Part shown: piece by piece, positions 27,975-52,801 of the stretch | Layout: every line of letters starts with the position of its first letter | Position numbering within the stretch: the stretch's first letter is position 1 | NCBI GenBank assembly: GCA_008330645.1 | Contig: VLTN01000036.1 | Span: forward strand, 1-64,000 | Length of the DNA stretch: 64,000 bases | Origin: Cafeteria roenbergensis | Taxonomy: Eukaryota; Sar; Bigyra; Bicosoecida; Cafeteriaceae | Direction of reading: 5' to 3' | Program-made: the position numbers and the translations under genes | The notes under the pieces: model-generated | Told to the model about the DNA's origin: nothing | Seen by the model: only the letters and a program-made list of their open reading frames with translations | Database searches by the model: none

Positions 27975-30900
27975 TCATCGCTTGGAGGCTGCAGCCCGCG
28001 AGCGACGGACGGCGCCGGCCCCGCACCCCTCCCGCAGCACCTTGGTTCCAACCAGTTGCGTGTCCAGCATCGGCAGCTTCTCCCCGGCATACGCCTCGGA
28101 GTGAATGCAGCCCTCCAAGTCGGGATTCAGCTGCAGGCGCAGCACCGACAGCACCGGAAGCGTGTCCGGGTGGAAGAGCTTCTCCGGAATGCGGCCGGAC
28201 AGCCGGTTGTGCTGCAACTGCACCTGGTGGAGCTTCCGCATCAGGCCGAACGACGCCGGGATGCCGCCCTCCAGGCTGTTCGAGTACAGGTCCAGCGTGC
28301 GCATGTTCGGCCACAGCTCGCCCATCCGCTCCGGGAGGCGGCCGTAGGCGAAGTTGCCGTCGATCCAGAACTTCTCCAGACGCGACCACCACCACCACGG
28401 CGCCGCGTCCGGCCCCTCCGTCACATCGAACCGGATCGCCCACCCCTCCGACACCGCCGTCTGCGGGTCGACCTGCTGCGGCCCCTCCTGCGGGAGCGCC
28501 ACGCACTGCCACGCCGGCTCGCCCTTGAAGTCCGACAGCGCCTCGAACAGCGGGCGGCAGCGCATCCGGGTCGGGTCGTACCCCGGCGCCGACGCCGCGA
28601 ACACGCCGGTGCCGGCGAGTGAGCGCTCCGCGCTGCTGCCGCTTCCGCCACCGCCGCCGCCGCCCTCGCGGGTCACCCGCCACGACCGCCAGTCCGGGCG
28701 CGCGCACCACTCGGGCGGGTCCTCGCCGCTGGCCGCTGCCATGGCGGCCGTCAGGGCCACCGCGCCGCCCGACGGGTGCCACATGGACCCCGGAGGCGGG
28801 CACATGCGCGAGCCCTGCTGGAACCCGATGAACGACCGCAGGGTCGCGTTCAGCTGGCGCAGCGCCGGCGGCAGCGGGTGCCGCACCAGCGGGTCGAACC
28901 CGAACCTGCACCCGCGAACATCCAACTCCACCAAGTGACCAAGCCTCCGGCCAAGGCAGCTAGGCAGGCCAGTGACAGACCCCGTCACGCCAAGGCGGCG
29001 CAGCTGACCCAGCGCACACACCCAGGCCACTGCGCGCGGGGGCTGCCCGCCCGGCACTCGGTGCTGGTAGGCCGCCAGCTGGTCGCGCGCCAGCGACAGG
29101 CCCGCCTCCTCACGAGCCCGCTGCTCGGCCGACGGCGACAGCGACTCCACCCCGATCGCCGCCCCCGGAGCATCCCAGCCCCCGCCAGATGCAGCCGCTG
29201 CCGACGCCTCCGCCACCTCGGCCGCGTCTCGCGCCGCCGCAACCGGGTCGGCCGGTGCGATGGCCTGCGGCGCGCACACGTGATCCGCCGACGTGCTCAC
29301 ATCCGTCTGCGTCCGGGCCAGCGTCAGGCCCTCCAAGGCGATGCTCGCGGCGCGCCTCGCCTGGCCCGCGGTCATGTTCTCGTGCAGAGCCCGCGCGACT
29401 GTGGCGCGCACCACAAACGCCATCGGGGCCGGGACCGCCTTCCCGGGAGTCCACCGCCACGCGCCGGCGAACCACGGCGCCGCGACCCCATCGGTGGCCG
29501 CCCCGGCGCCGTCCATGAGGGCCGACAGCACGCGCCACGGGCCCGCCTTCTCGTCCTCGCTGCCCGGCCGCCGAGCCGCCTCCACCGCCGCGCTCGCAAT
29601 GATGTGCGCGGAGTCCAGCAGCTCTGCCGGGGTGACGGACTCGGCCTCGCTGTTCTCCAGCCGCGGCCTGGGCAGGCCCGCGTCGCTGTCGGCCTGCCGC
29701 GTGGCCAGCCACTTGCGCCGCTGCTCCATGTCAGTCAGCGCCGCGTCGTGCCGCAGGTCCGCGTCGGTCATGGCCCGCCCGGCGCTGTCCGTCTGCGGCT
29801 CTGCGCGAAAGGCCATGAGCAGCGCGTCGCCGGAGCCCATGCCGAGCCCCCGCGCTGCGTCGGCCAGCTGCTGGGCGCTCAGCTCCACCACCACTTGAGC
29901 CATGTCCGCCAGGGTGGAGGGGCCCTCGTCCAGTCCGTCCGCATCCAGGTGGGCCCGCATCTCGGCAGCCTCGTGGGAGCCGATGGCCCCTGCTTCGTCC
30001 CCCGCGCTTCCGCCTGCGGCTGCCGCGCCCTCGTTGTCCGCCATGTGCTCCAGGGGCGACCGCGCATCTCGGCGCCGGCGCCTTGCGGCAGAGCCGGCGT
30101 TGCCGCCGTGTCCGCCCTCCCCGCCAGCGTCCTCATCAGCGTCCTCATCATTGTCCTCGTCCTCGTCCTCGTCCTCGTCGATTGCCCATTCAGCGTCCTC
30201 GCCGTAAAAGTCGTGCCCGACCGTTGACGCGTGCACCTGCCCCCCTACCGGCGGCGCTTGGGGGGCCGAGCCCGCCTCGGCCAGGGCGAGCTCCACCATG
30301 GCGCTGGCCGCCTGCCGAGTGCGCTCCCTCGAGAAGGACCACTCCGAGCCGGAGTCAGACGTCGACGACACGCCGCCCAGCTCCACCGACATGGACCGCA
30401 GCCAGCGGAGCAGCGGCAGCTGGGCGGACCGCGCCTTGGCAGCCGCCGCCAGCCCGGTGAGGTGGAAATCGGCGCCGAGGTATCTCAGGCGCAGCCGCCC
30501 GAGCACAGTCGTCGCGAAGCGGCGGCTGCAAGCGTTGCTCACAACGTCGCCCATGTTCGTCAGCACCAGGCCCCGCAGTCCCTCCATGCGCGCCAGAGAC
30601 GCGGGCAGCGCGCCGACCAGCATCGGCTCCTCCACCAGCGTCAGCAGCGTCACGCGCAGCGTCCACCGACTGCCGTCGCGCGACGACCCCGTCCCCGCCG
30701 CCGCCTCCGCGCGCCACGCGAGCCCGGCCTCGTCCGCCTCGGCGTCGTCCGCGTCCTCGTCCTCCGCGAGCGCCGCCTCCGCGGCGGGGTCGGCCAGCGC
30801 GGCGCCGCCCCCCGGCATGCGCCTGGGCGAGCAGAACACGTACGCACACCGGCACGGGTCGTCGCGCAGACGAGCGCACTTGTGCCACTGGCTCCCGCCC

Positions 30901-31508
30901 ATTGCGTCGTGCAGGTCGCGCCAGGCGGCCAGGTCGTCGTGGTGGACGGGCGGCGCAGCCGCCAGCTGCTGCGGCGACACGACGGCGTGCCGCGCGTGGT
31001 ACAGAATCGCCGAGTGCCGCAGCTCGTAGTTGCCGAGCACGGGCTTGAGCATCGGGGAGTGCTTGACAAACTCGGCGAGTGTCCCGATGGCTCGGAGCGC
31101 CGCTTGCACGCGGTCCGGGGAGCTGCCTCGCGACGCGACCATGCTGTCGAGCTGGCTGGCGTCCATGCCCATGGCGTCCACGAAGCCGGCCACATACATG
31201 GGCAGAATCGTGGACCACAGAGACGAGATGTTGCTGGCGACAGCCTCGGCGTGAACGGCCTCAATGGGTGCCGGCATCGCGCAGTCGAGCGGCGAGCTGT
31301 CGCGGTCCGACCAGCACTCAGGCGAGGCGCGAAGCTCGTTGTACACGGCCTCGTTGAGCGGGAAGCGGGCGTTGCAAACCCGGTCGTGCTCCGCAGCCAA
31401 CGCGGTCGGCCGCGCGAGGCTGTCGCTGCCCCGCGCGTTCGCCGACGGCTCGGCAGCGACATGCGCAGCGCCCAAGCACGCCGCGGCAAGCGCAAGCGCG
31501 CGGAGCAT
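27975..31508 (-). CDS. Secreted LRR-family protein, copy 1
   Basis: 1177 residues from the ATG at 31508; the frame is open to 31571 but starts there with TTG. A signal peptide is clear (MLRALALAAACLGAAHVA). A Cys-containing N-terminal domain follows (CNARFPLNE ... LPMYVAGFVDAMGMD), then conserved block A (PPVHHDDLAAWRDLHDAM ... CRCAYVFCSPRRMPGGG, with an LRR-like GALPASLARMEGLRGLVL). Next come an acidic, hypervariable middle, block B (LLDSAHIIASAAVEAARRPG onward) and plant-type LRRs near the C-terminus (MRTLDLYSNSLEGGIPASFG, LHQVQLQHNRLSGRIPEKLF). No membrane helix or GPI signal was seen, so it is probably secreted or wall-associated. LRRs bind protein or glycan ligands. Blocks A and B are nearly identical in DNA to copies 2 and 3. 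Confidence 0.85.
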   Translation of the reverse strand: MLRALALAAACLGAAHVAAEPSANARGSDSLARPTALAAEHDRVCNARFPLNEAVYNELRASPECWSDRDSSPLDCAMPAPIEAVHAEAVASNISSLWSTILPMYVAGFVDAMGMDASQLDSMVASRGSSPDRVQAALRAIGTLAEFVKHSPMLKPVLGNYELRHSAILYHARHAVVSPQQLAAAPPVHHDDLAAWRDLHDAMGGSQWHKCARLRDDPCRCAYVFCSPRRMPGGGAALADPAAEAALAEDEDADDAEADEAGLAWRAEAAAGTGSSRDGSRWTLRVTLLTLVEEPMLVGALPASLARMEGLRGLVLTNMGDVVSNACSRRFATTVLGRLRLRYLGADFHLTGLAAAAKARSAQLPLLRWLRSMSVELGGVSSTSDSGSEWSFSRERTRQAASAMVELALAEAGSAPQAPPVGGQVHASTVGHDFYGEDAEWAIDEDEDEDEDNDEDADEDAGGEGGHGGNAGSAARRRRRDARSPLEHMADNEGAAAAGGSAGDEAGAIGSHEAAEMRAHLDADGLDEGPSTLADMAQVVVELSAQQLADAARGLGMGSGDALLMAFRAEPQTDSAGRAMTDADLRHDAALTDMEQRRKWLATRQADSDAGLPRPRLENSEAESVTPAELLDSAHIIASAAVEAARRPGSEDEKAGPWRVLSALMDGAGAATDGVAAPWFAGAWRWTPGKAVPAPMAFVVRATVARALHENMTAGQARRAASIALEGLTLARTQTDVSTSADHVCAPQAIAPADPVAAARDAAEVAEASAAAASGGGWDAPGAAIGVESLSPSAEQRAREEAGLSLARDQLAAYQHRVPGGQPPRAVAWVCALGQLRRLGVTGSVTGLPSCLGRRLGHLVELDVRGCRFGFDPLVRHPLPPALRQLNATLRSFIGFQQGSRMCPPPGSMWHPSGGAVALTAAMAAASGEDPPEWCARPDWRSWRVTREGGGGGGGSGSSAERSLAGTGVFAASAPGYDPTRMRCRPLFEALSDFKGEPAWQCVALPQEGPQQVDPQTAVSEGWAIRFDVTEGPDAAPWWWWSRLEKFWIDGNFAYGRLPERMGELWPNMRTLDLYSNSLEGGIPASFGLMRKLHQVQLQHNRLSGRIPEKLFHPDTLPVLSVLRLQLNPDLEGCIHSEAYAGEKLPMLDTQLVGTKVLREGCGAGAVRRSRAAASKR

Positions 31509-32024
31509 GCCGGCCCGTCCCAGCGGCCGCAGCTGCCGCAGCCGCGCGGGAGGAGTGGTCGCTCTGGCCAAGATGCAGACGGGGAGACGCGCGCCTCGTC
31601 TCGCCTCCGCAGCAGCCCGGCCGGCAGAGCGCGCCGCGCGCCCGCGCCCGGCTGGCCCCGAGCGGCCGCAGCGCTGCTCCCCTTTGCAGGCTGGCTCAAG
31701 GAGGCGATTTCGCGCGCTGTGCAGCGGCCCTGGGAGCGGGTGTCCTTCCCCCGGCCGCCTCGAGGCTGCAGTCGCGGACCGGCTCTCTGGGCCCGCTCGC
31801 TTGCGCGGTTTTTCCGCCCCCCTCCCCTGCGGCAGGGCTTGCCGGCCGGGCCGGGGCGGTGGGCAGCCGCGGGTCGCCAGCGCGGGGCGTGGCGCGTCGA
31901 ATCCCTCTCGGGGGTCAGGGGCGCGCGAGCGTGCAGGACCTGAGTGGCGTTGGTTCGCTCGCGGAGCAGGCGCTGGCTGACTGGGCTGGCAACCCCGGAA
32001 AATTGTGGCAGGTGTTGTTCTCTC
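31509..32024. other. Upstream region of LRR copy 1
   Basis: Lies between the LRR copy 1 start and the D-glutamate cyclase stop, both on the minus strand. It should carry the LRR promoter. Nothing else was recognised. Confidence 0.5.
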
Positions 32025-33236
32025 TCAAACCGGCGCGCCCAGTGCACGAAGCCGATGCAGCACCGCGGCGTGCTCGCTCCACGCCATCCCGTCGCACATG
32101 GTGCCCGACTGGTCCCCGGTAATGCCGTCTCGCGCGCCGGCCGCGGCAGCTGCGGCCATCACGGCCACCTCCTCCGCCTCCGACGGCACGAGCACGCCGG
32201 GGGCGCTTCCGGCCACCAGCCCGGCGCACCGCGCGGCCTCCTCGCTCGTGCACACGGCTGCGATGGCCTCGTCCGGAGACAGAGCGAGGCCAGGCCGTCC
32301 TGGCGTCGCGGGGGCGGCTGGGACGGCCGCCGCGGCGGCGTCAGCTGACATTCCCGCCTCGGCAGCGGCAGCATCGGCTGCGGCGTAGGCGCTCTCGTCG
32401 CGGGCGAGCTCTCGAAAGAGGGCCTCCGCTCCGGCGCACAGCGCCCACCCGCCCCAGTTGCTGACGCCAGCCGCCACCAGGAAATCGCACTCCTCAACGC
32501 AGGCCACGGTTTCGCCGAGCGCAATGTGCGCGCGCACCTGGTCCACGACGGCGCCCATTCCCATCTCGTTGCCGCCGTCGCCGACGCCGACTACCCTGCA
32601 GCTGAGGGGCCCCGCAGAGCCATCGCGGGCAGCGGCCACGGCCTCTGCCGCCGCCCCCAGCGGCGCCACGATGTGGTCCATGCGAAGGCCACGCATCGTG
32701 CGGTAGCTGCCGTCGGCAGCGCGGCCGGCGCGCTCGATCGCAATGGCGGCGTCGCACCCGGTCGCAACCGCCCTGCTCTCGCGCAGCGCTCGCGCGGCGT
32801 CGGCCTCGTCGCCGGCAGCCGCTGCCGCAACTGCCCTCATCGTCAGAGCGCTTCCAGACGCCTCTCCGCGGCCAGCGGCCAGCGAGTCGGCCTGGCCCTG
32901 CTCCCAAGCAAGCTGGACAACCTTGGACACCACGTCCTCGTTGCATGCGTCGGTTGCGACTGTGACGCTCTTGCCCAGGCGGGCGCACAAGCGCACGATC
33001 GCAGCGGCGCCGGCTGGCCCGTCGTTCTCCGTTGGCGGGTCGTCTGCCAGGCGGCACGGGAAGCCTGTGAGCACGAGGGGGTGCTTGGAGGCTGCCAGCA
33101 CGCATGCCGCGCCCACGAAGGCGCCAGGGAGGAACAGATGGCCGACGCCGCGCTTGCCTGGGTCCTGCGCCGTCACCGACTCCAGCGCCCGGAGCGCCGC
33201 GTCCATCGCACGAGACCTGCCACGGGACGCTGCCAT
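32025..33236 (-). CDS. D-glutamate cyclase-like protein (DUF4392 domain only)
   Basis: A single exon of 403 residues from the ATG at 33236 (a second ATG at 33206 is possible). It matches the C-terminal domain of DGLUCY: LVLTGFPCRLADDPPTENDG, an IAIERAG...GSYRTMRGLRMDH segment, VVGVGDGGNEMGMGAV and AAGVSNWGGWALCAG. In animals DGLUCY converts D-glutamate to 5-oxo-D-proline in mitochondria. The N-terminal DUF1445-like domain of animal DGLUCY is absent. A loop of about 70 Ala-rich residues is inserted before the C-terminus (SGTMCDGMAW). Localisation is not clear from the N-terminus. Confidence 0.8.
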   Translation of the reverse strand: MAASRGRSRAMDAALRALESVTAQDPGKRGVGHLFLPGAFVGAACVLAASKHPLVLTGFPCRLADDPPTENDGPAGAAAIVRLCARLGKSVTVATDACNEDVVSKVVQLAWEQGQADSLAAGRGEASGSALTMRAVAAAAAGDEADAARALRESRAVATGCDAAIAIERAGRAADGSYRTMRGLRMDHIVAPLGAAAEAVAAARDGSAGPLSCRVVGVGDGGNEMGMGAVVDQVRAHIALGETVACVEECDFLVAAGVSNWGGWALCAGAEALFRELARDESAYAAADAAAAEAGMSADAAAAAVPAAPATPGRPGLALSPDEAIAAVCTSEEAARCAGLVAGSAPGVLVPSEAEEVAVMAAAAAAGARDGITGDQSGTMCDGMAWSEHAAVLHRLRALGAPV

Positions 33237-33583
33237 CTTCGTTCCCGGGGTTGCACCCCTCGCCGGGTGTGCTTGGGCGGGCTGTGCGCGCTGGAAGGTC
33301 CGCGCGCGCGCCTGTGAGAGGCAGCGGTCCGAAATATTGGCGTGCCCCCAAAGATGTCCCGTCGCGCGCGGAGGCTTCTTCTTCCCCCCTACCCCGCTCG
33401 ATGTGGCAGCGCATGATGGATTTACAAAACGAACAAGCGTTTGCGGACAGTTTCCAGCCGCGCGAGCACGCTGCCAAGCTCACACAGCACCGCCGGCCGG
33501 TGCATGCCCCGCGCTGCGCTCGAACGGCCAGCCGCGCAAGCAGCGGCGCGATGGCCCTCGAGCCCAGCACCATCGCCGCCACG
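33237..33583. other. Intergenic stretch between two minus-strand genes
   Basis: Contains the 3' UTR of the upstream OB-fold-like gene and the promoter of the D-glutamate cyclase gene. Nothing further was seen. Confidence 0.5.
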
Positions 33584-35070
33584 TCACGCTTTCCGCGTCG
33601 CTCGCTGCACCACGTCCGATCCAGGCAGCAGCGCTGGCGTCCAGACCGGGGCGTGGCCCCACGGCGCGGCAGTCCCCGGCGCCAGCCCGGCGCCCCCTGC
33701 GGCCTCAGCCGGACGCGCTGCCGCCGCATCGTTCGCTGCCGGCGCCGGGGATTGCCGTGCCCACACGGAGGCGCCAGCCCTTGCCGCTGCAGCCTCCGCC
33801 CGGGCCAGCGCGGCGGCCCGCCCGACCGGGCTCGGGCTCCGGCTCCGGCTCCGGCTCCGGCTTCGGCTCCGCTTGGGTGCTCGCGCAGGCCCGCCTGGCG
33901 CGGCCGCCGCGGCCGCCGCAGCCGTGGCAGCCGCTGCGCTCGCCGCCCCCAGTGTGGCATCCGGCCCTACTGGGGCTGCAAGAGCCGGGCGGTTCGCCGC
34001 CAGCCTCGACAGCAGCAGCGGCTCCTCGGCCGGGCGGTCCGTGGGGACGAGGCGGGGGCACCTGCCCTGCAGCCGGGCTTGGAGGATGGCGTGGGAGGCG
34101 GGGTGGAGGGGGGATGCGAATGCACCTGCGGCGGGGCTCGCCTTCGACGCGGACGCTCCGCCCGCGGCAGCGCGCGCCGGTGCGGCGGGCGCCAGCGACG
34201 ATGCCGAGCTGGACGAGGACGACGAGGACGACGACGTGCAGGAGGAGGAGCACGACGACGACGACGACGAAGAGGACGAGGAGGAGGAGGACGACGAGGA
34301 CGAATAGGGGGACGTTGAGGGGGCGCCCGGCGCCGTCGCCGCTGCCGGCATTGACGCCAGCGGCGGTGCCGGCGCTGCCGCGAGGGCCCGCACACCGTGC
34401 GCCGCAGCCGGCGCCGACGCACTCGCAAGCAACCCCGCACTCCGCAGAAACTGCCGGCGGTGAGCGACGCTCTGTCTGAACGCTGTGGCGGACACCCCCG
34501 TGGCGCGCGCCCATGCGCAGCGCACGGCCATGGCGCCCGGACGCGCCCCGGGGAAGCGGGCGAGCTGGGCCAGGGGAATGGCCACGACCTGTCCGGCCAG
34601 CCGCGTGAGGCGGCCGGTGTGGTGAGCGGCGGCCTCCACGTCGGCGCGCCCAAGCAGCGACAGGTCTGCCCACACCTGCGGCAGCCACCGCACCAGCCCG
34701 CCGCTTGCGGGCGCACTGGCGGCCACGTTCTCGGGCTGGTCCCCCTGGATAACGCCAGAGGCCGTCGCTGCGTCTACATCCACGAGCCTGCGGGGCCGGG
34801 GACAGGCGGGGAACGGCGCTGGGTTGGATGCGGGGCAGAGGCACTGCGTTGCCCTGGCCGAGCCACGCCGAGATGCGCGCCGTGGGCCGCCGCGCACGCG
34901 GCCCCGCCGCTGAGAAAGGCAGCCCCGGCTGGGGTCGGAGCGCGCTCGGCTGCCGCTCACCTTCCCACGACCTGCACATTCGAAAGCTCCGGCACTTGCA
35001 CAAGCGCCAGCTCGCTGACGAGCACAAGCTCGCCCACCGCCCCCGCGCGCTCAGACGGGGCCGCCAGCAT
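33584..35070 (-). CDS. Possible TEN1-like OB-fold protein with long low-complexity tail
   Basis: Exon 1 is 35070-34961 and exon 2 is 34787-33584; the phase 2 join is clean (SNVQVVGR/LVDVDAATASG) and the product is 437 residues. The first 145 or so residues read like a small OB fold: GELVLVSELALVQVP, QVVGRLVDVD, VWADLSLLGR, HHTGRLTRLAGQVVAIPLAQL, and a final helix ending AFRQSVAHRRQFL. Order and spacing resemble TEN1 of the telomeric CST complex, but the match is by eye and weak. The other 290 residues are Ala/Pro/Ser-rich, with a long poly-Ser run and an Arg-Ser dipeptide stretch (KRSRSRSRSRSRSPSP) suggesting a nuclear protein. It is divergent from the channel gene. Confidence 0.45.
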
Positions 35071-35305
35071 TTCGCGCCAACGGGGCCAGGTTGGCCGGGC
35101 AGCAGGGGGCGATTGCTATCCTCGTGCGCTGTCCGAGCGGTCGCGCAGCGGCCAGGTCTCGCGCTGTGCGAGGCGCCCCTAGTTAAGTGCCTGCGTCCAC
35201 GCAACTCTGCGGCAGAGCCAAGCTGGGCCAGAGTTGGGGTGGGAAAAAACCGTAACACAAGAAAGGAACAGGGCATCGGCGAACGACTCCGTGCCGCCCA
35301 AGGCC
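35071..35305. promoter_or_regulatory. Divergent promoter between TEN1-like and channel genes
   Basis: 235 bases between two start codons on opposite strands. Assigned by position only; no core motif is clear. Confidence 0.4.
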
Positions 35306-38461: not shown

Positions 38462-38822
38462 CGCGCGAGCGAGAGTGCCCCAGCGGCCGCGCAGGCGGGC
38501 GCGCTCAGAGCGCCAACGGGATCCAGCGCAGCGCTGCCGTGTTGAACTGCGCCATCAGCCGTGTGGCAGCTGTGTGGCCAGCCGTGTCGGGCGCCCGGCC
38601 AATTTTGCTAGCGGGTCGCGCAAACGGCCACTCGGACACAGGCGCACCAATCCGACTGAACATGCAAACGCAACGTCTAGCAATGCCGGCCGCCGAGTGA
38701 CGCACAACGGCCGCCGAGTGACGCACAACGGCCGCCGAGTGACGCACAACGGCCGCCGAGTGACGCACGACGGCCGCCGAGTGACGCACGACGGCCGCCG
38801 CGGAGCGCCGGCTCGCCCTGGG
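38462..38822. other. Convergent intergenic stretch carrying a minisatellite
   Basis: Lies between the channel stop and the PH-protein stop. Its second half is the 21-bp tandem repeat. No gene was seen. Confidence 0.6.
38689..38799 (+). repeat. 21-bp minisatellite (about 5 units)
   Basis: Unit GCCGCCGAGTGACGCACAACG, with the last two units carrying CACGACG instead of CACAACG. The units are directly adjacent without spacers, so this is a plain tandem repeat. Confidence 0.9.
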
Positions 38823-39992: not shown

Positions 39993-42246
39993 GGCCTGGA
40001 GCTCCCAAAGGTGTGCGGAAAGGGCACAGTGCCAGAGTTCGGCTCTGCGACCAATCGCAGCTGCAATTGCTGCTCAGCGGAGGCGTTCTTGCACTCGAAG
40101 GCTGGCCTGCCGCCAAACGAGACAGTGCAACAGACCAGACTCCGCGGCGGGGCTTTCACAAACTGTCCTTCGATTGCTGCCCGCAGGCGAATCCATTGAA
40201 ACAGGGCAAAAACAGAGCGGAACACGCCCCGCTGGCACCACTCTCAACTGTTGCCTGCAGGCGGTGCTGCGCAGTGCATTGTCGCTCCGCGAGCAATACC
40301 TCCCTGGCTTGCCAGAGAGCAAATGAACCCAAGTAGGTGTTGTGGAGAGCAGACAGACCGAAGCAGCAATCCCAGGAGGAGACTCGAAACACCGCCGGCT
40401 GCGCTGTGCGCCGGGTGTTTTCGGCGTGGGCTTGGGTGGCGGCCGCAGGGCAAGTCAAACCTTCCCCGCACCCGCTGCGGCAGCGTGACAGCGCCGAACG
40501 AATCACGCAGTTGAAACATGCCTGAGCGGCTGGCCAGTTCGTCGCGCACCGATCGAATGCGATGCGACAGAACAGCGACGCTTGCCATCTACGACAGCCC
40601 GAGGCAGCAGTCGGCACCTTGGGCACATCAGGACGAGACATCGCCGTCAACGTCGAGCTTGAACGCGGACGCTGCCACTCGATGAATGATGAGCGGCTCT
40701 GTCAAAAAAGCAAGCACCGCAGGTACTGTGCATCCTGGCCCACCGACAGAGTGAGCCCAGCTCAATACGTTGCAGACGAGAGGCGAAATATTGAGACCTT
40801 TGCCTATGTTGCGGGGACCTCAACTGTCACACGAGCGGCATCTCACATAACCTCTCGTACGTTCCCTACCATCGATGCAGATGGTCGGCGCCCCTCGTCA
40901 ACTTACAGCAGGACCGAGGCAACACGCAAGCAGAAAGATGCTACTGGTCTCACAGGCACTGCAAGCCATGCCGCGGCTTAGTTTCGGTCCAAGCGGGTAG
41001 TGTGGTTCCTCCCATGGGCTTCGAAGAGCAGAACAAGTCCGGAAGCTCAGCTCCTGACAACTCTCAGTGCATTGGTGCGACTTCAACAAACAAATCCGGT
41101 TGGCAAAGTTGTGTTCAAATGGTTGCCGAGGGTCAACTTCAGACGAAGGCAGCGCGAATTTCTTTCCAGGGTCTTGAGCGAGGCGCAGTACTCAAGCTCT
41201 CGAAAGGAAAGTTGACTGCCATTCAAGCTCGCGAGACACACGACGCACAGCAGTCAATGTCAATATTGGGCAGGCAACCCCCAAAGGGGTCAACCCATCG
41301 TGTCGACATCGACCGGCATGGTTCTGTTCAGAACACCATCGTGAAACGATAGAACACCCGACGACCGGAGGTCAAGTTCACAAACACGAGTGTTGGGGCA
41401 TGTCGCTTGAACCGAGAACATTTGTCAGGGCATCGCTCCAGGAGAGTACTTTGTGATGGTGACGGGAATCACTGCCTCACGCGGCTCGGCTCGGATTGAC
41501 ACTATTCACCTGGCTCCGCGTCTTCCTTGGCTTCAAGGACAGGCAGACGGATGAGTAAGAGGCCTTCACAAACTCTGGAACGCGACACAGCCGGTGATAC
41601 ATCGGGCGATGCTTTGAGATCCAGTTGACCACAACCTGAACCGTGCGCCTCAAAGTCACGTTCGACATCCATGCAGTCATTGTGTTCGTCGGAGCTTTGG
41701 GAATCGCCTTCAAGACTGGGTGCTCAAGGTTCACTTGACTCTTGCAGTGGGTCCTTGGTCGGCCCACGGTCATTGTTCATTGACGGGAACAGCCGTGCCA
41801 CGCCGTCAAGTCGAGAGGAGAAGGCCCTGACGCGAGCGCCCTTGGCGCAAAATCTTCAGCTATGAGAATGCACCTGAAAACTGCTCTTCCTGCCCAAGCA
41901 GAGCTCCTTCGCTGTGCATAGGTCTCTTGTGATCGCGTGCGCTTTCACACGGTGCACCTGAACATTGTGACCTGAGAATCACGTACATCGCTGGACCCCT
42001 TTTTTGGCTTCGTTGCGATTGTCCCACACAGCTTTTGATCAAGCAAACGCTGCTTGGCTGCTAAGGGAGGCAACCACAAACTGCAACAGCAGCAGCTGAC
42101 CTGTGTGTCTCGTGCTGCAATTTGTATCAAGCCTACGGCGGCGCAACTTGGCGCGGGACAAATGGCATGGTGGGAGAGGGAGTCGTCGCCGAAGGGCGCT
42201 CGCAGAACGTCGCTGGAGCCGAGCAGGTCCACGTCCTTTGTCATAC
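39993..42246. other. Lower-GC, gene-poor stretch
   Basis: Base composition falls towards about half G+C in the middle (sampled by eye around 40.7-42.1 kb), well below neighbouring genes. Open frames are short (40562-40981, 41002-41352 plus strand) and lack recognisable domains. It may be old intergenic DNA, decayed mobile-element sequence or an insert of different origin. The right end borders LINE copy D. Confidence 0.5.
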
Positions 42247-43112
42247 CAGGTTTTGTGAACCGCAGTTGACTTCTTGTCCCGTCGTGATCTGCAAGGGCTC
42301 CACATCGGCGGGGTCTCGGGTGTGGCGCACCACCTGGCGCGCTGCCGCTGCGGCAAGGGCTCCACCATCCGGGCGCACAACGACGTCCGCGACGTCCTGC
42401 ACGCGGCGGTGCGCTCGGCGGGGCTGCAGTCGGTGGTGGAGCCCTCCAACTGGCAGGACGGGCAGACGCGCTTCGGGTCCCAGCCGAGGTCCAGCGAGGC
42501 CGCGCGCAAGCGACCGGACCTGCGGGTGCACGTCGACTTCGAGACCACCCGTCTCGTCGACGTGCAGATCACCTCGGCGGTGAGCAAGTCCTACGTGACG
42601 CAGGGCCTGCAGAGCATGGACGCCTTTCTCGAGCGCCGTGAGAATGACAAGATGGGGGAGTACAAGAAGAGCTCAGCTACAAAGGACAACATGAGCTCCA
42701 TTGTGCCCTTCGTCGTCACGACCACGGGACGCATGGGACCGGCGGCCTTCGCCTTCCTCAAGAAGGTGGCGGACACGGCCTTCGGCGACCGGCCGAGGGA
42801 GCGTGCGCGCTGGGCCTTTCGCTGGCTGTCGAGGCTGAACGAGGTCATCGCCAAGGGACTGGCGACCCAGCTGATCGGGCAGACGCAGTACCTGCGACAG
42901 CAGGTGGAGCGCATGCGGTGAGCAGGGGCGGCTGAGTGGCGACTCGTGGCGGTGTGATGGGCGTGATCTGGGACTTGGGACTTGGGCTTGCGGGCTTCGC
43001 ACGGTTTGTGACTCATCGGTGATGGAGTTGCTGGATTGGTGATTGATGAGTCTGTGAATCGAGTGTGTGGTATGGTTACGCGAGTTTTTGACCCCCCCCC
43101 AACGATGTTCAT
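42247..43112 (+). mobile_element. LINE 3' fragment, copy D (longest; RLE domain and 3' tail)
   Basis: The longest copy of the non-LTR element in the window: the end of its ORF (42259-42921) plus the 3' tail ending CCCCCAACGATGTTCAT. It is 5'-truncated with no RT, in the same orientation as the other three copies. It serves as the reference for copies A-C. Confidence 0.85.
42259..42921 (+). CDS. C-terminus of non-LTR retrotransposon protein: zinc knuckle and restriction-like endonuclease
   Basis: The frame is open after a stop at 42256-42258, with no authentic start because of 5' truncation. A Cys/His cluster (RCRCGKGSTIRAHNDV) is followed by a restriction-like endonuclease signature: KRPDLRVHVDFETTRLVDVQ, with the RPD and acidic residues of the PD-(D/E)xK type. 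A conserved helical C-terminus ends QQVERMR. In R2/NeSL/CRE-type LINEs this module follows the reverse transcriptase and nicks the target for priming. Copy C shares the last 80 codons and copy B the last 35. Confidence 0.75.
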   Translation, partial: TAVDFLSRRDLQGLHIGGVSGVAHHLARCRCGKGSTIRAHNDVRDVLHAAVRSAGLQSVVEPSNWQDGQTRFGSQPRSSEAARKRPDLRVHVDFETTRLVDVQITSAVSKSYVTQGLQSMDAFLERRENDKMGEYKKSSATKDNMSSIVPFVVTTTGRMGPAAFAFLKKVADTAFGDRPRERARWAFRWLSRLNEVIAKGLATQLIGQTQYLRQQVERMR

Positions 43113-43686
43113 TTCTGCATGAACGGGCAGTGAGGTGCCCCCAGCTTCTCGGATGGCTGGCTTCGTTGGACCTGCGAGCCAGAGGAGAATCCAAGGAGGG
43201 TCTTGTGCTGCCTAGCGGGTGCTGTCGACTTCCACTCCGGGTTGATGCTGCAGCAGACAACAGCTCCCAGAAGAAGCGAGCGGCAAGCTTCTTGGGGCGG
43301 GTGCTCGGCCCAGATACTTGGCAGACCTTTGGAGGAGACTCGAAACCAGGTCGGCTGCCAGTGTGGGTCCGCTGCTGTCGAGTTGAATCGCACGTCGCTG
43401 ATCGGAATGGGCCAGTCCACCACCCCTAGCTCTCGAAGTCCCTCGATGCGGGCACCACAACGCTGCCGCGACTCCATTGCTCAGCACAGGTGCTGCTTGG
43501 CCGCCGAAGCTGTGGTTCAAGGTGCCATGCACATCTCATCGCGGTGCGCATGAGGCGCCTGGTGGCCCGTGCGGGAAGATGGCGCATGGGGTGGCCACAG
43601 TTGAAGCAGACGCAGACCGGCTGAGTCGAAACTTGTCTCGAGCAGTTGAATCACTCCGACTGCCGCGAGGGCCAGGGCCGCAGGCA
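43113..43686. other. Stretch between LINE copy D and LRR copy 2
   Basis: Moderately lower GC. It should contain the promoter and 5' UTR of LRR copy 2. The LRR frame is open upstream to about 43477 but without a better start. No other gene was recognised. Confidence 0.5.
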
Positions 43687-44148
43687 ATGGGCGGGCGTTC
43701 CCGCCGCCCCCCGTGCCGCAAGAGTTTGCTGTTTATCAGTGCGGCTGCACTGTGCGTGGCCCATGCGGCCAGCAGGCACAGCAAAGCAGCCTTGAGGGCC
43801 GAGCACGACCAAGCTTGCGGCGCACGATTTCCTGTCCGCCTCGACCTGGAGCGGTCGACTCGCCAGAACCCCAGGTGCTGGTCCGCACGAGACGCAATGG
43901 CTGCGCGCGCGTGCGCAATGCCAGAGCCCCTGGAGGCGGTGAGGGCGGCCGCAGTCGCTCGGAACCAGAGCTCGCAGTGGTCAAGCATTGTGCCAATGTA
44001 CGTTGCAGGCTTTCTCGATGCCACGACAGCAAGAGTGGCGCTGATCCACACCTTGCGGACGATGCGGGAGAGTGATGCAGACCGTGCGCAGCGCAGTTTC
44101 GACGAAGACCGCGAGTTGGCGGCGTTTGCAGAGGAATTTCAGCCGCTC

Positions 44149-44718
44149 AAGTCGATGCTCGGCAACCACGAGCTGCGGCACGCCTCCACGGCGTACCACC
44201 TCCGGCATGCGCTTGTGTCGGACAGGCTCCTCGATGCGGCGCCGCCCGTCCATCACGACGACATGGCCGCCTGGCGCGACCTGCACGACGCCATGGGCGG
44301 AAAACACTGGCACCGATGCTCGCGCCTGCGCGACGACCCGTGCCGGTGTGCGTACGTGTTCTGCTCGCCCAGGCGCATGCCGGGGGGCGGCGCCGCGCTG
44401 GCCGACCCCGCCGCGGAGGCGGCGCTCGCGGAGGACGAGGACGCAGACGACGCCGAGGCGGAAGACGCCGGGCTCGCGTGGCGCGCGGAGGCGGCGTCGG
44501 GGACGGGGTCGTCGCGCGACGGCAGTCGGTGGACGCTGCGCGTGACGCTGCTGACGCTTCTGGAGGAGCCGATGCTGGTCGGCGCGCTGCCCGCGTCTCT
44601 GGCGCGCATGGAGGGACTGCGGGGCCTGGTGCTGACGAACATGGGCGGCGTTGTGAGCAACGCTTGCAGCCGCCGCTTCGCGACGACTGTGCTCGGGCGG
44701 CTGCGCCTGAGGATGCTT
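44149..44718 (+). repeat. LRR-family conserved block A in copy 2
   Basis: Nearly identical to 48010-48579 in copy 3 except for a 15-base island at about 44182-44197 (GCCTCCACGGCGTAC here, TCAGGGATTCCGTAT there). Homology ends abruptly after AGGATGCTT. Copy 1 has the same block, somewhat more diverged, on the minus strand near 30490-30960. Confidence 0.85.
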
Positions 44719-45217
44719 GTTACAGACACAATGTTGCCGGGGCTGTGGGCTCACGATGGCACTGACCTGCCTCCCCTGCCGCTAGTGCGATGGCTTCGGA
44801 GCCTGACATTGGAGCTAGGCGCAGCGGCGTCAGTCGATATGTTTCGAACAGCGTGGTCCCCCGAGCGCAAAGCAGCAGCAGAAGCTGGGGCGAGGGTCGC
44901 GGACGATATGGCTGATTTGCTGGCGAAGCAGAGGGGGGCATCGCACGCGCTCGATGGCCCCATCTTGTCGACTGTTGGTGCAGTCGCCGAGATTGACGAC
45001 GAGGAGGACTGGGGGGATGATGAGGCACAAGGCGAAGCCGGCGAGCTTGACGAGGACTTCGAGGATGGCGAGAACCAACGTTTGGGAACAACACAAGGCG
45101 CAAGCCTATTGGTGAGCCACGGGCAAGTGTGCTTGCAAAACGGCCAAAGCCAGTGTGACTGCGACAGCTGCATTCCTAGCCCACCACGGTATTGACTTGC
45201 GCCCCCTCGCCTCTGCT

Positions 45218-47130
45218 GGTTCGCCACCACCCAAGCCGCAGACCCAGGCGCATCCCACCTCGGCTGCCATCGTCCACAGATCGCTCGCGTTGCTGACCGA
45301 GGACCAGCTTCGCCAGGCGGCCAAGGCCATGGGCGTCGGCAGCGCCGAGGCCCTGCGACGCGGTCTCGCTCCTGGCTCGGCCCCAAGCGCCGCGGCCGAG
45401 GCGGTGCTGATGAAGCACGACCTGCCGACCGAGTGGCTCTTCCCTGAGGCATCGTGGATCCGCGAGAACTTCACACGGCCGCGTCGCCACGACGAGACCG
45501 CGGGCGTCCCCTCGGAGGGCGAGGCGGCGTCTCTGCTGGACTCCGCGCACATCATCGCGAGCGCGGCGGTGGAGGCGGCTCGGCGGCCGGGCAGCGAGGT
45601 CGAGAAGGCGGGCCCGTGGCGCGTGCTGTCGGCCCTCATGGACGGCGCCGGGGCGGCCACCGATGGGGTCGCGGCGCCGTGGTTCGCCGGCGCGTGGCGG
45701 TGGACTCCCGGGAAGGCGGTCCCGGCCCCGATGGCGTTTGTGGTGCGCGCCACGGTCGCGCGGGCTCTGCACGAGGGCATGACCGCGGGCCAGGCGAGGC
45801 GCGCCGCGAGCATCGCCTTGGAGGGCCTGACGCTGGCCCGGACGCAGACGGATGTGAGCACGTCGGCGGATCACGTGTGCGCGCCGCAGGCCATCGCGCC
45901 GGCCGACCCGGTTGCAGCGGCGCGAGACGCGGCCGAGGTGGCGGAGGCGTCGGCAGCGGCTGCATCTGGCGGGGGCTGGGATGCTCCGGGGGCGGCGATC
46001 GGGGTGGAGTCGCTGTCGCCGTCGGCCGAGCAGCGGGCTCGTGAGGAGGCGGGCCTGTCGCTGGCGCGCGACCAGCTGGCGGCCTACCAGCACCGAGTGC
46101 CGGGCGGACAGCCCGCCAGTCTTCTGGCCTGGGTGTGTGCGCTGGGTCAGCTGCGCCGCCTTGGCGTGACGGGTTCTGTCACTGGCCTGCCTAGCTGCCT
46201 TGGCCGGAGGCTTGGGCACTTGGTGGAGTTGGACGTTCGCGGGTGCAGGTTCGGGTTCGACCCGCTGGTGCGGCACCCGCTGCCGCCGGCGCTGCGCGAG
46301 CTGAACGCGACCCTGCGGTCGTTCATCGGGTTCCAGCAGGGCTCGCGCATGTGCCCGCCTCCGGGGTCGATGTGGCACCCGTCGGGCGGCGCGGTGGCCC
46401 TGACGGCCGCCATGGCAGCGGCCAGCGGCGAGGACCCGCCCGAGTGGTGCGCGCGCCCGGACTGGCAGTCGTGGCGGGTGACCCGCGAGGGCGGCGGCGG
46501 CGGTGGCGGAAGCGGCAGCAGCGCGGAGCGCTCGCTCGCCGGCACCGGCGTGTTCGCGGCGTCGGCGCCGGGGTACGACCCGACCCGGATGCGCTGCCGC
46601 CCGCTGTTCGAGGCGCTGTCGGACTTCAAGGGCGAGCCGGCGTGGCAGTGCGTGGCGCTCCCGCAGGAGGGGCCGCAGCAGGTCGACCCGCAGACGGCGG
46701 TTTCGGAGGGGTGGGCGATCCGGTTCGATGTGACGGAGGGGCCGGACGCGGCGCCGTGGTGGTGGTGGTCGCGTCTGGAGAAGTTCTGGATCGACGGCAA
46801 CTTCGCCTACGGCCGCCTCCCGGAGCGGATGGGCGAGCTGTGGCCGAACATGCGCACGCTGGACCTGTACTCGAACAGCCTGGAGGGCGGCATCCCCGCG
46901 TCGTTCGGCCTGATGCGGAAGCTCCACCAGGTGCAGTTGCAGCACAACCGTCTGTCCGGCCGCATTCCGGAGAAGCTCTTCCACCCGGACACGCTTCCGG
47001 TGCTGTCGGTGCTGCGCCTGCAGCTGAATCCCGACTTGGAGGGCTGCATTCACTCCGAGGCGTACGCCGGGGAGAAGCTGCCGATGCTGGACGCGCAGGT
47101 TGTTGGAACCAAGGTGCTGCGGGAGGGTTG
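45218..47130 (+). repeat. LRR-family conserved block B in copy 2
   Basis: Starts at GGTTCGCCACCACCCAAGCC, offset 3815 from the copy 3 start at 49033. It is almost identical for about 1.9 kb apart from two islands near 46106-46125 and 46168-46186, and ends at GTGCTGCGGGAGGG. Copy 1 shares it from its LLDSAHII codons to the same end point. Upstream of the start and downstream of the end the copies are unalignable. Confidence 0.85.
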
Positions 47131-47155
47131 TACGCGCAGCCGGCCCTCTGTTTGA

Positions 47156-47544
47156 CGCCCAGCCTTGCAGGGCTGCAGTCATTGCCCTTGTGTCCTTCGC
47201 GCGTTCGCTGCGGCACTCCGGTTCTTGTTCTGCCTTGTTCACGCCCCCGAGTTGCGGCCGCTTCTTTGGCGAGTTGCTCGACTGCATCTGCACTGTAGCC
47301 AGGCTCAGCGTGCACGTCGCACACGCGCAAAAGCTCCTCGCAGTTGAGCCAGTCACAGTTGGCACGCGGTGCCAAAGGCCTGACAACGGATTGCGACGTC
47401 TGGTTTCGATGCTCCGGCGTCCCGCCTGGAATTGTTTGACAGCGGGCAAGTAAAGTCGGGCAGAGGGGGACCGGCAACAGAAACGCTGCGCAGCAACCCC
47501 GAAAGCCGCAGTGCCACTTGGGACTGCCAGCGCGCCCATCCTCG
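47156..47544. other. Spacer between LRR copies 2 and 3
   Basis: 390 bases that should hold the 3' UTR of copy 2 and the promoter of copy 3. No similarity to the flanks of copy 1 was noticed. Confidence 0.5.
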
Positions 47545-50500
47545 ATGGCAAGTCGCCCGAGGGCTCTTGTTGCTGCATTTGCGGCGACACTGGCGGCTGC
47601 TTTGGGGTCTTCGTCTGCTGGCGGTGTCGATGACGCAATGCGCGACATGTCTGCGGCGCGCAATCGCCTGGGGGCCACGTGCGCAGCACGGTTCCCACTG
47701 GCCCGGAGCACGGTGTCTGAGCGGTTGGCAGTTCCGCCATGCCTGGTGGGCTCCAACTGGTTGCCTGCGCACTGCGCAGTGCCTGAGCCGGTCGCTGAGT
47801 TGCAGCGCGCGGCAAAAAAAGCCATCGTGGTTGGGGACTGGCCAGAGCTGCACGCTATGTACGTGGCTGGCTTTGTCGACAACATGGGCATGGACAGCGG
47901 CCGCCTTTCCTCGATTGTTGCGAAGCGCGATGAGTCGACCAGCGGCGTGCAGGCCGAAATCCAATCGCTGCGACGGCTTTTCGCTTTTCTGCAATCGTTT
48001 CCGCTGCTGAAGTCGATGCTCGGCAACCACGAGCTGCGGCACTCAGGGATTCCGTATCACCTCCGGCATGCGCTTGTGTCGGACAGGCTCCTCGATGCGG
48101 CGCCGCCCGTCCATCACGACGACATGGCCGCCTGGCGCGACCTGCACGACGCCATGGGCGGAAAACACTGGCACCGATGCTCGCGCCTGCGCGACGACCC
48201 GTGCCGGTGTGCGTACGTGTTCTGCTCGCCCAGGCGCATGCCGGGGGGCGGCGCCGCGCTGGCCGACCCCGCCGCGGAGGCGGCGCTCGCGGAGGACGAG
48301 GACGCGGACGACGCCGAGGCGGACGAGGCCGGGCTCGCGTGGCGCGCGGAGGCGGCGTCGGGGACGGGGTCGTCGCGCGACGGCAGTCGGTGGACGCTGC
48401 GCGTGACGCTGCTGACGCTTCTGGAGGAGCCGATGCTGGTCGGCGCGCTGCCCGCGTCTGTGGCGCGCATGGAGGGACTGCGGGGCCTGGTGCTGACGAA
48501 CATGGGCGGCGTTGTGAGCAACGCTTGCAGCCGCCGCTTCGCGACGACTGTGCTCGGGCGGCTGCGCCTGAGGATGCTTTGGGTCGACTTTCACCTGGCA
48601 AGCTTGCTCGGGCTGCAAGCGCCGGGAACACGCTCCTTGCCACTGGTTCGGTGGCTCCGTTCAATCGTCGTGAAGACTGGAGACATTGGAATCAGGCACG
48701 AATCCTCAAGGTTTCGAGACAAGCTCACGCCAGAGGTGGCAGCAGCTGCAGCTGAGGTTGCTCAGGCTGCCGTTCGCGAGCAACTGGCCTCGCAAGGACG
48801 TGACAGTACCGGCTTGCCGTCGGCTGATTTGCGGCACCAACATGGCTTGCCAAGTGACAACTGGCTACTGGGCGACCAAGAGAGCAGTGATTGGGGCGAC
48901 GAAGATGAAGACGACGAGGACCCAGACGCCCAGCCGGCTAGCCATGCAGACGTCATGGACGCACGTCAGATTGCCAAGGTTTCGAATCCCCAGCACCAAT
49001 CGCCTTCGCCAGTCGAACGGCCTATTGTGGGCGGTTCGCCACCACCCAAGCCGCAGACCCAGGCGCATCCCACCTCGGCTGCCATCGTCCACAGATCGCT
49101 CGCGTTGCTGACCGAGGACCAGCTTCGCCAGGCGGCCAAGGCCATGGGCGTCGGCAGCGCCGAGGCCCTGCGACGCGGTCTCGCTCCTGGCTCGGCCCCA
49201 AGCGCCGCGGCCGAGGCGGTGCTGATGAAGCACGACCTGCCGACCGAGTGGCTCTTCCCTGAGGCATCGTGGATCCGCGAGAACTTCACACGGCCGCGTC
49301 GCCACGACGAGACCGCGGGCGTCCCCTCGGAGGGCGAGGCGGCGTCTCTGCTGGACTCCGCGCACATCATCGCGAGCGCGGCGGTGGAGGCGGCTCGGCG
49401 GCCGGGCAGCGAGGTCGAGAAGGCGGGCCCGTGGCGCGTGCTGTCGGCCCTCATGGACGGCGCCGGGGCGGCCACCGATGGGGTCGCGGCGCCGTGGTTC
49501 GCCGGCGCGTGGCGGTGGACTCCCGGGAAGGCGGTCCCGGCCCCGATGGCGTTTGTGGTGCGCGCCACGGTCGCGCGGGCTCTGCACGAGGGCATGACCG
49601 CGGGCCAGGCGAGGCGCGCCGCGAGCATCGCCTTGGAGGGCCTGACGCTGGCCCGGACGCAGACGGATGTGAGCACGTCGGCGGATCACGTGTGCGCGCC
49701 GCAGGCCATCGCGCCGGCCGACCCGGTTGCAGCGGCGCGAGACGCGGCCGAGGTGGCGGAGGCGTCGGCAGCGGCTGCATCTGGCGGGGGCTGGGATGCT
49801 CCGGGGGCGGCGATCGGGGTGGAGTCGCTGTCGCCGTCGGCCGAGCAGCGGGCTCGTGAGGAGGCGGGCCTGTCGCTGGCGCGCGACCAGCTGGCGGCCT
49901 ACCAGCACCGAGTGCCGGGCGGGCAGCCCCCGCGCGCAGTGGCTTGGGTGTGTGCGCTGGGTCAGCTGCGCCGCCTTGGGTTGGCTGGAGAGCTGACTGG
50001 CCTGCCTAGCTGCCTTGGCCGGAGGCTTGGGCACTTGGTGGAGTTGGATGTTCGCGGGTGCAGGTTCGGGTTCGACCCGCTGGTGCGGCACCCGCTGCCG
50101 CCGGCGCTGCGCGAGCTGAACGCGACCCTGCGGTCGTTCATCGGGTTCCAGCAGGGCTCGCGCATGTGCCCGCCTCCGGGGTCGATGTGGCACCCGTCGG
50201 GCGGCGCGGTGGCCCTGACGGCCGCCATGGCAGCGGCCAGCGGCGAGGACCCGCCCGAGTGGTGCGCGCGCCCGGACTGGCAGTCGTGGCGGGTGACCCG
50301 CGAGGGCGGCAGCGGCGGTGGCGGAAGCGGCAGCAGCGCGGAGCGCTCGCTCGCCGGCACCGGCGTGTTCGCGGCGTCGGCGCCGGGGTACGACCCGACC
50401 CGGATGCGCTGCCGCCCGCTGTTCGAGGCGCTGTCGGACTTCAAGGGCGAGCCGGCGTGGCAGTGCGTGGCGCTCCCGCAGGAGGGGCCGCAGCAGGTCG

Positions 50501-50979
50501 ACCCGCAGACGGCGGTTTCGGAGGGGTGGGCGATCCGGTTCGATGTGACGGAGGGGCCGGACGCGGCGCCGTGGTGGTGGTGGTCGCGTCTGGAGAAGTT
50601 CTGGATCGACGGCAACTTCGCCTACGGCCGCCTCCCGGAGCGGATGGGCGAGCTGTGGCCGAACATGCGCACGCTGGACCTGTACTCGAACAGCCTGGAG
50701 GGCGGCATCCCGGCGTCGTTCGGCCTGATGCGGAAGCTCCACCAGGTGCAGTTGCAGCACAACCGGCTGTCCGGCCGCATTCCGGAGAAGCTCTTCCACC
50801 CGGACACGCTTCCGGTGCTGTCGGTGCTGCGCCTGCAGCTGAATCCCGACTTGGAGGGCTGCATTCACTCCGAGGCGTACGCCGGGGAGAAGCTGCCGAT
50901 GCTGGACACGCAGGTTGTTGGAACCAAGGTGCTGCGGGAGGGGTGCGGGAGCGATCGCTCGCCGGCCGGTGGCGCGTAA
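47545..50979 (+). CDS. Secreted LRR-family protein, copy 3 (intact)
   Basis: 1144 residues from the ATG at 47545 (the frame extends to a TTG at 47518). The signal peptide is MASRPRALVAAFAATLAAAL. The N-terminal domain has Cys pairs (CAARFPLAR, CLVGSNWLPAHC) and the family motif MYVAGFVDNMGMD. Block A is at 48010-48579 and includes CRCAYVFCSPRRMPGGG. A unique acidic middle follows (48580-49032; DWGDEDEDDEDPDAQ), then block B at 49033-50944 with C-terminal LRRs. The middle of block B is an Ala-rich helical domain (TAGQARRAASIALEGLTLAR). It ends REGCGSDRSPAGGA. No transmembrane anchor was seen, so it is likely secreted or cell-surface-associated through other partners. The frame is intact, which makes it the best candidate for a functional family member on the plus strand. 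Confidence 0.85.
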   Translation: MASRPRALVAAFAATLAAALGSSSAGGVDDAMRDMSAARNRLGATCAARFPLARSTVSERLAVPPCLVGSNWLPAHCAVPEPVAELQRAAKKAIVVGDWPELHAMYVAGFVDNMGMDSGRLSSIVAKRDESTSGVQAEIQSLRRLFAFLQSFPLLKSMLGNHELRHSGIPYHLRHALVSDRLLDAAPPVHHDDMAAWRDLHDAMGGKHWHRCSRLRDDPCRCAYVFCSPRRMPGGGAALADPAAEAALAEDEDADDAEADEAGLAWRAEAASGTGSSRDGSRWTLRVTLLTLLEEPMLVGALPASVARMEGLRGLVLTNMGGVVSNACSRRFATTVLGRLRLRMLWVDFHLASLLGLQAPGTRSLPLVRWLRSIVVKTGDIGIRHESSRFRDKLTPEVAAAAAEVAQAAVREQLASQGRDSTGLPSADLRHQHGLPSDNWLLGDQESSDWGDEDEDDEDPDAQPASHADVMDARQIAKVSNPQHQSPSPVERPIVGGSPPPKPQTQAHPTSAAIVHRSLALLTEDQLRQAAKAMGVGSAEALRRGLAPGSAPSAAAEAVLMKHDLPTEWLFPEASWIRENFTRPRRHDETAGVPSEGEAASLLDSAHIIASAAVEAARRPGSEVEKAGPWRVLSALMDGAGAATDGVAAPWFAGAWRWTPGKAVPAPMAFVVRATVARALHEGMTAGQARRAASIALEGLTLARTQTDVSTSADHVCAPQAIAPADPVAAARDAAEVAEASAAAASGGGWDAPGAAIGVESLSPSAEQRAREEAGLSLARDQLAAYQHRVPGGQPPRAVAWVCALGQLRRLGLAGELTGLPSCLGRRLGHLVELDVRGCRFGFDPLVRHPLPPALRELNATLRSFIGFQQGSRMCPPPGSMWHPSGGAVALTAAMAAASGEDPPEWCARPDWQSWRVTREGGSGGGGSGSSAERSLAGTGVFAASAPGYDPTRMRCRPLFEALSDFKGEPAWQCVALPQEGPQQVDPQTAVSEGWAIRFDVTEGPDAAPWWWWSRLEKFWIDGNFAYGRLPERMGELWPNMRTLDLYSNSLEGGIPASFGLMRKLHQVQLQHNRLSGRIPEKLFHPDTLPVLSVLRLQLNPDLEGCIHSEAYAGEKLPMLDTQVVGTKVLREGCGSDRSPAGGA
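48010..48579 (+). repeat. LRR-family conserved block A in copy 3
   Basis: Counterpart of 44149-44718. The few differences noted by eye include a V/L change in LPASVARM and an ADE/AED change in the acidic stretch. Confidence 0.85.
49033..50944 (+). repeat. LRR-family conserved block B in copy 3
   Basis: Counterpart of 45218-47130. It differs from copy 2 at the two small islands near 49921-49940 and 49983-50001, and at scattered single bases such as GGSGGGGSG instead of GGGGGGGSG. Confidence 0.85.
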
Positions 50980-52677: not shown

Positions 52678-52801
52678 CTTGCGGGGGAGCGGGAGGGGGG
52701 GTTGGGGTGGCTGGGTGGAAGGCTGGTTGCACTCGAGGCACGTGGCGTCGCCAGGCGCGCGAGCCAGGGGCCAGGCCCGTTGCGACAGGGGCAACGGGCA
52801 T

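Follow-up and report, generated by a model that had tools for sequence, protein, structure and literature searches.

Patchy homogenization, very probably by ectopic gene conversion, in three linked leucine-rich repeat genes of Cafeteria roenbergensis

Constant and variable parts are combined in the variable lymphocyte receptors (VLRs) of lampreys and in the variant surface glycoproteins (VSGs) of trypanosomes, the genes for the latter lying near telomeres. In mammalian TLR1 and TLR6, the paralogues are more alike than the orthologues over about 300 residues that include leucine-rich repeats (LRRs), owing to independent conversions, whereas the orthologues are closer in the N-terminal part (Kruithof 2007, PMC2077338). 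Near-identical tracts are shared between LRR genes of Tetrahymena, which contain arrays of 90-base-pair (bp) exons, and ectopic recombination or gene conversion has been proposed as their source (PMC6564038). The LRR-ROCO genes of brown algae carry shuffled modules and are proposed to be immune receptors (PMC11378527). Here, we describe three linked LRR genes in a window of 64,000 nucleotides from the bicosoecid Cafeteria roenbergensis (assembly GCA_008330645.1, contig VLTN01000036.1, here C36:1-64000), in which two near-identical blocks alternate with strongly divergent segments. The whole assembly (36,303,456 bases, 167 contigs, high in guanine and cytosine) was searched at the DNA and protein levels; the best candidates were scored, and the results below are those among the matches listed.

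The three paralogues occupy the coordinates and strands given in the original prediction:

27975..31508, minus strand: copy 1, a single open frame of 1177 amino acids with a signal-like N-terminus (by eye and hydropathy)
43687..47155, plus strand: copy 2, two frames with a probable intron, 1112 amino acids if so spliced
45112..45241, plus strand: putative GT-AG intron of copy 2, with the same donor and acceptor bases in contig C160 (see below)
47545..50979, plus strand: copy 3, a single open frame of 1144 amino acids

The open frames of copy 2 (43477-45195 and 45155-47155) are not continuous; with the GT-AG interval 45112-45241 removed at the predicted splice sites, copy 2 would read as one frame.

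The near-identical blocks, designated A (approximately 580 bp) and B (approximately 1.6 kb, or 1.9 kb between copies 2 and 3), and the divergent segments V1 and V2 are arranged as follows:

about 30477..31055, minus strand: block A of copy 1, 91-92% identical to either other copy, with most differences in the 5' third
44137..44718, plus strand: block A of copy 2, 97% identical to copy 3
47998..48579, plus strand: block A of copy 3, 97% identical to copy 2
28024..29621, minus strand: block B of copy 1, 98% identical to 45533-47130 of copy 2 and 49348-50949 of copy 3
45218..47127, plus strand: block B of copy 2, of which 45218-45532 is common only to copy 3 and C160
49033..50942, plus strand: block B of copy 3, the longer block shared with copy 2 (from 45218/49033), 99% identical
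43687..44136, plus strand: V1 of copy 2, with 39-47% protein identity among the three copies
44719..45217, plus strand: V2 of copy 2, acidic, with 22-38% protein identity among the three copies in V2a

In windows of 100 alignment columns, the DNA identity between copies is either about 38-65% or 89-100%, and the step from one level to the other includes a few transitional windows. The predicted border words are located at 44710/48571, 45218/49033 and 47114/50929; the third is also present on the minus strand at 28028 and, once by chance, at 5336. The abrupt borders are thus confirmed, as is the observation that copies 1 and 3 differ at about two sites (two are found) in the first 80 or so bases of block B. 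The 3' border of block B stands where it was placed; it is not purely a block edge, as it nearly coincides with the end of the coding region. The 5' border of block B lies approximately 315 bp further out between copies 2 and 3 than between either of them and copy 1.

Synonymous divergence (dS), calculated by the NG86 method for the three gene pairs in each segment, follows the same layout. In V1, dS is 0.99 (0.985), 1.27 and 1.33, and in V2a it is 2.24 and 2.27 with one pair saturated. In block A, the values are 0.008, 0.072 and 0.081, and in block B they are 0.035, 0.040 and 0.051 (replacement divergence, dN, 0.010-0.011), so that the near identity does include synonymous sites. Within any one gene pair, dS in V1 exceeds dS in A and B by a factor of approximately 16 to 120. 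The stretch before B gives 0.97-0.98 for copy 1 against either other copy and 0.06 between copies 2 and 3. The longest high-identity fragments span 282-441 codons in the three pairs, whereas shuffled codon columns give at most 32-51, and none of 2000 shuffles reaches the observed length in any pair. Uniform divergence after duplication is therefore excluded, as originally argued. Additionally, V1 and V2a have dN values lower than dS, with dS close to or at saturation, and in the stretch immediately before B the two are approximately equal for copy 1; these values therefore give no readable sign of positive selection among the paralogues.

A distant paralogue on contig C9 is 34% identical in A and B (93/156 and 459/533 codons aligned) and 25-29% identical in V1, which indicates that the constraint on A and B differs only mildly from that on V1 and that selection alone would not produce the 93-98% identity of the blocks. 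Because synonymous sites are equally alike in A and B, selection on the protein is insufficient to account for them.

Contig C160 (11,906 bases) matches positions 40884-56328 of the window in reverse, at about 99% in pieces, and carries one gene where the window has two (copies 2 and 3). As assembled, this gene corresponds to copy 2 in V1, A and V2 and in the greater part of B and then continues into the 3' flank of copy 3, the switch lying between 47093 and 47128:

47128..50942, plus strand: stretch of 3,815 bp absent from C160, in which copy 2 runs directly into the 3' flank of copy 3

The flanks of C160 differ from the window by about 0.6-0.9% substitutions and by small indels, as alleles might, and private variants are present. 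From these comparisons, C160 is best read as a second haplotype with a deletion that joins the two tandem copies. Copies 2 and 3 have diverged too far in their V segments to have been duplicated recently, which makes a deletion of 3,815 bp likelier than a gain. The organism appears to be diploid with no known sexual cycle, and redundant contigs built as individual alleles were removed with Redundans (PMC6972860).

The gene conversion that was predicted to homogenize discrete blocks is, with high confidence, the best account of the pattern in the three genes, and it would be the economical one. Copy 1 is inverted and lies 12 kb from copy 2, with the B arms 16 and 20 kb apart, yet it is 98% identical to the others in B; unequal crossing-over alone cannot homogenize an inverted copy, whereas ectopic gene conversion can. 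Among copies 1, 2 and 3 and the C160 gene, 14 sites in A and B divide the sequences two against two and imply at least six recombination intervals, five of them inside B (V2 and the stretch before B were left out of this count). Uneven divergence within A, in the 5' part of copy 1, is expected if conversion tracts differ in age. Outside a 90-bp patch of block B, copies 2 and 3 differ in cis by 0.27%, compared with 0.44% between copy 2 and C160. Outside the blocks, in V1 and V2, copy 2 and C160 are about 99% identical and the paralogues about 40-65% at the DNA level, in one haplotype pair. Taken together, the three genes would be linked paralogues of long standing that encode a probably secreted LRR protein and evolve patch by patch: ectopic conversion, inverted copies included, would keep copying blocks A and B among the genes, while V1 and V2 may have grown too different to pair and so drift independently. 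Pairing limited by mismatches would set the borders at nearly equal places in all pairs. The tandem copies 2 and 3 may also recombine with each other, and a deletion by non-allelic homologous recombination may have fused copy 2 to the 3' flank of copy 3.

Differences within block B are themselves clustered in two small patches:

46108..46180, plus strand: patch of clustered differences in copy 2, LRR-like by eye, comprising a run private to copy 2 (46115-46124) and the counterpart of a run private to copy 3
49980..49995, plus strand: patch of clustered differences private to copy 3

Of the 25 substitutions that separate copies 2 and 3 in block B, 20 fall within 90 bp around the LRR-like stretch, and none of 2000 random placements is as clustered. 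Four other pairs cluster at the same patch (0 or 1 of 2000), the exception being copy 1 against C160 (1714 of 2000). Within B, C160 joins copies 1 and 3 against copy 2 at the 46115-46124 run and sides with copy 1 at three single sites. When donors for both micro-patches were sought in the assembly with at most three mismatches, only their own places were matched. The patches may have escaped conversion, come from a paralogue since lost, or arisen by complex mutation.

Several points weigh against this account. When the 90-bp patch is included, copies 2 and 3 differ by 1.31%, compared with 0.84% between copy 2 and C160, in one haplotype pair. C160 could be a collapsed repeat, although its private variants and the 0.6-0.9% substitutions in its flanks speak for a separate sequence. 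Short-read polishing can transfer single-base variants between near-identical paralogues, which makes the site-level mosaic weaker evidence than the block pattern. The sample comprises two haplotypes of one strain, seen as assembled sequence. Finally, a few long-past events would leave much the same pattern as ongoing conversion. A first alternative is a single recent spread in which one gene donated A and B to the others a single time, with no exchange thereafter. Such an event would account for the low divergence of the blocks; however, divergence varies by sub-block and by pair (the 5' part of block A in copy 1, the 315-bp offset of the 5' border of B), and the incompatible sites imply several events, so we regard a single spread as improbable.

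All three proteins have a hydrophobic N-terminus, the mean hydropathy over 19 residues never exceeds 1.39 elsewhere, and no strong transmembrane-like stretch lies beyond the N-terminus; judged by eye and hydropathy, the three proteins are probably secreted. The N-terminal stretch of copy 2, at 1.34, is below the maximum of 1.37 elsewhere in that protein. The LRR profile PF00560 is passed at 24.4-28.3 bits against a cut-off of 20.6, whereas PF13855 and PF12799 score under their cut-off of 27, and plant LRR receptor chains are matched by the gene product. All LRRs recognized by Pfam lie within the constant block B. In V1, block A and V2 of copy 3, no Pfam match exceeds its cut-off, the best being NUP50 in V2 (17.2 bits against 22.5), and Pfam finds neither TIR nor ROC-COR. 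An LRR N-terminal cap in block A was a by-eye impression alone and is not claimed. Structure prediction of copy 3 with four window translations gave a mean predicted local distance difference test (pLDDT) score of 31.6 and a predicted template-modeling (pTM) score of 0.24. A scan of IMG/VR with copy 3 returned nine pattern-matched stretches and no confirmed relative.

The second alternative, put forward in the original prediction, is a diversity-generating system in which hypervariable V segments are swapped as cassettes onto constant blocks to yield new specificities, with the logic of VLRs or VSGs. The sharp-bordered constant and divergent modules, the locus near a contig end, the apparent haplotype with a changed copy number and the differences clustered in an LRR-like stretch would all suit such a system. 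Comparison of the apparent alleles does not bear it out. In one haplotype pair, copy 2 and C160 differ by 0.83% in V1 and 1.0% in V2, against 0.76% in the flank, 0.70% in A and 0.84% in B, so that V divergence is like that of the flank and the blocks and the term "hypervariable" is not supported. Differing codons number two synonymous and no replacement in V1, two and two in A, and six and seven in B (codons with gaps, the tail and a short interval flanked by two indels are omitted); V2, with no synonymous and four replacement codons, fits the cassette system and speaks against strong constraint there, a count too small for a test. Among the best candidates, the V segments (DNA of all three genes, protein of V1 of copy 3) occur only at this locus and at its counterpart on C160. 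The family members found are the three linked copies, the one on C160 and the distant paralogue on C9, with short, weak matches to block A (64-84 bp) on C1, C21 and C29. The best candidates include no genomic pool of LRR cassettes as in VLRs, the V and patch sequences having no further copies, and no large silent archive as in VSGs. The recognized LRRs sit in the constant part, the reverse of the VLR arrangement. A cassette system is accordingly rated as very unlikely; as far as tested, the locus is not an antibody-like diversity machine and represents a known kind of gene evolution.

An assembly or polishing artefact in the near-identical blocks is a highly unlikely third alternative. For the PacBio assembly, Racon polishing used both PacBio and Illumina reads, contigs were broken at coverage drops and redundant ones were removed (PMC6972860), and C160 contains a pair of compensating single-base indels. 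However, the blocks are shorter than 2 kb, sit between unique flanks and are found again, with private variants, on a separate contig, and polishing cannot raise an identity of approximately 50% to 98%. A history without conversion, in which A and B are under extreme purifying selection and the V segments are relaxed, can practically be discarded, since, although dN in B is below dS, the contrast between dS of at most 0.081 in A and B and at least 0.985 in V1 refutes it unless synonymous sites are under unusual constraint, and A and B retain just 34% identity with the C9 paralogue.

By analogy, the closest known case to the homogenization proposed here is the domain-restricted concerted evolution of TLR1/TLR6. 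In both, the LRR paralogues are linked, the LRR-bearing C-terminal stretch is kept alike, in the present genes very probably also by conversion, and the N-terminal part has diverged; the converted regions are almost the same in each mammalian species, and the borders here are nearly the same in all pairs. Unlike TLR1/TLR6, this locus has three copies, one of them inverted, and two homogenized blocks, and no TIR domain is found by Pfam, homology to Toll-like receptors being judged from Pfam and PDB searches alone. The Tetrahymena genes likewise show near-identical tracts in a protist, but they shuffle single-LRR exons among very many genes, whereas this family is nearly intronless and has three copies and one distant paralogue. 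The brown algal LRR-ROCO genes are also stramenopile LRR genes; in contrast to them, Pfam finds no ROC-COR here, there is no array of LRR exons and the LRR part is constant. A layout of one LRR per exon is not seen in the three copies (copies 1 and 3 are single frames, copy 2 has one probable intron), and such nearly intronless genes cannot shuffle LRR exons as the Tetrahymena and brown algal genes do. Compared with VLRs and VSGs, the differences are the lack, among the best candidates, of variable LRR cassettes and of a silent archive. A literature search found no paper joining Cafeteria, leucine-rich repeat and gene conversion, which is not proof of absence from print.

The LRR family lies about 28-51 kb from a contig end, possibly a chromosome end, and the left end of the window holds retroelement pieces. 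Chromosome-end regions are often prone to ectopic recombination, and a link between this position and the recombination of the LRR family is a suggestion only. Pieces of the retroelement are found at 2725-3168, 7594-8040 and 42299-43113, the last opposite unrelated sequence in C160 (window 42296-43114 against about 9400-10494):

42299..43113, plus strand: copy of the 3' part of the contig-end retroelement, in place of which C160 has about 1.1 kb of unrelated sequence

The arrangement would fit the repair of a broken site with retroelement DNA on one of the two haplotypes, the direction being unproven. Duplication of copy 2 driven by the retroelement was rejected, as the fragment is upstream of the repeated blocks and not inside them.

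The element is non-LTR-like (LTR, long terminal repeat), with RVT_1 in two of five frames scanned at two contig ends. With the best 40 of 244 candidates scored, so that counts are lower bounds, at least 73 matches occur assembly-wide, including the window itself and the shared flank of C160. Among the matches listed, 46 cover nearly all of the 815-bp piece; 44 of these are no more than 20 kb from the nearer contig end, and in 45 the 5' end faces outward, the exception being on C85 (25 shorter matches are not in this count). At ten left contig ends, the copies all run in the same direction, often head to tail, many being 5'-truncated with a shared 3' end. These arrays resemble telomeric retroelement arrays with the logic of HeT-A/TART. 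Contig breaks at repeats could explain the position of the element but hardly its orientation. No three-unit TTAGGG or TTTAGGG tract was found in the assembly and no two-unit tract at the ten left ends, and the word stem "telomer" is absent from two published Cafeteria genome papers. A frame of 1916 amino acids in C17:525500-534500 contains a telomerase RNA-binding domain (32 bits against a cut-off of 25); two pieces of the frame scored below the telomerase-domain cut-off, and among solved structures the frame has a weak telomerase match (2e-4), ranked after an unlikely enzyme (1e-4).

Elsewhere in the window, positions 1-2100, next to the contig-end array, resemble by eye the RNase H and tyrosine-recombinase part of an Ngaro-type element; such elements have been described from this strain (PMC8547959). 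A tandem array of 126-bp units (9.2 copies) at 3265-4421 lies inside an open frame with TPR repeats. A local repeat family at 60712-61733 and C36:65671-68029 has tracts of approximately 420 bp that are 87-93% identical, with an adjoining stretch at 76%, and perhaps shows the same patchy homogenization.

The locus offers a clean protist example, with one copy inverted, of a probably secreted LRR protein in which conversion would preserve one portion as the remainder changes; a second contig resembles a haplotype carrying the corresponding deletion. An alternation of near-identical and divergent blocks does not by itself imply an adaptive diversity system, and short-read polishing calls for care in gene families of this kind. 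With four strain assemblies published (PMC6972860), the conversion claim can be tested directly. Any benefit would likely be the combination of a common LRR part with different N-terminal and middle parts, which is a supposition. It is doubtful, though conceivable, that the locus is a modular self/non-self or prey-recognition locus of a free-living stramenopile, in which conversion would keep the LRR chassis, internal recombination would join N-terminal parts to 3' ends and make copy-number haplotypes, and a short LRR patch where specificity differs would be spared.

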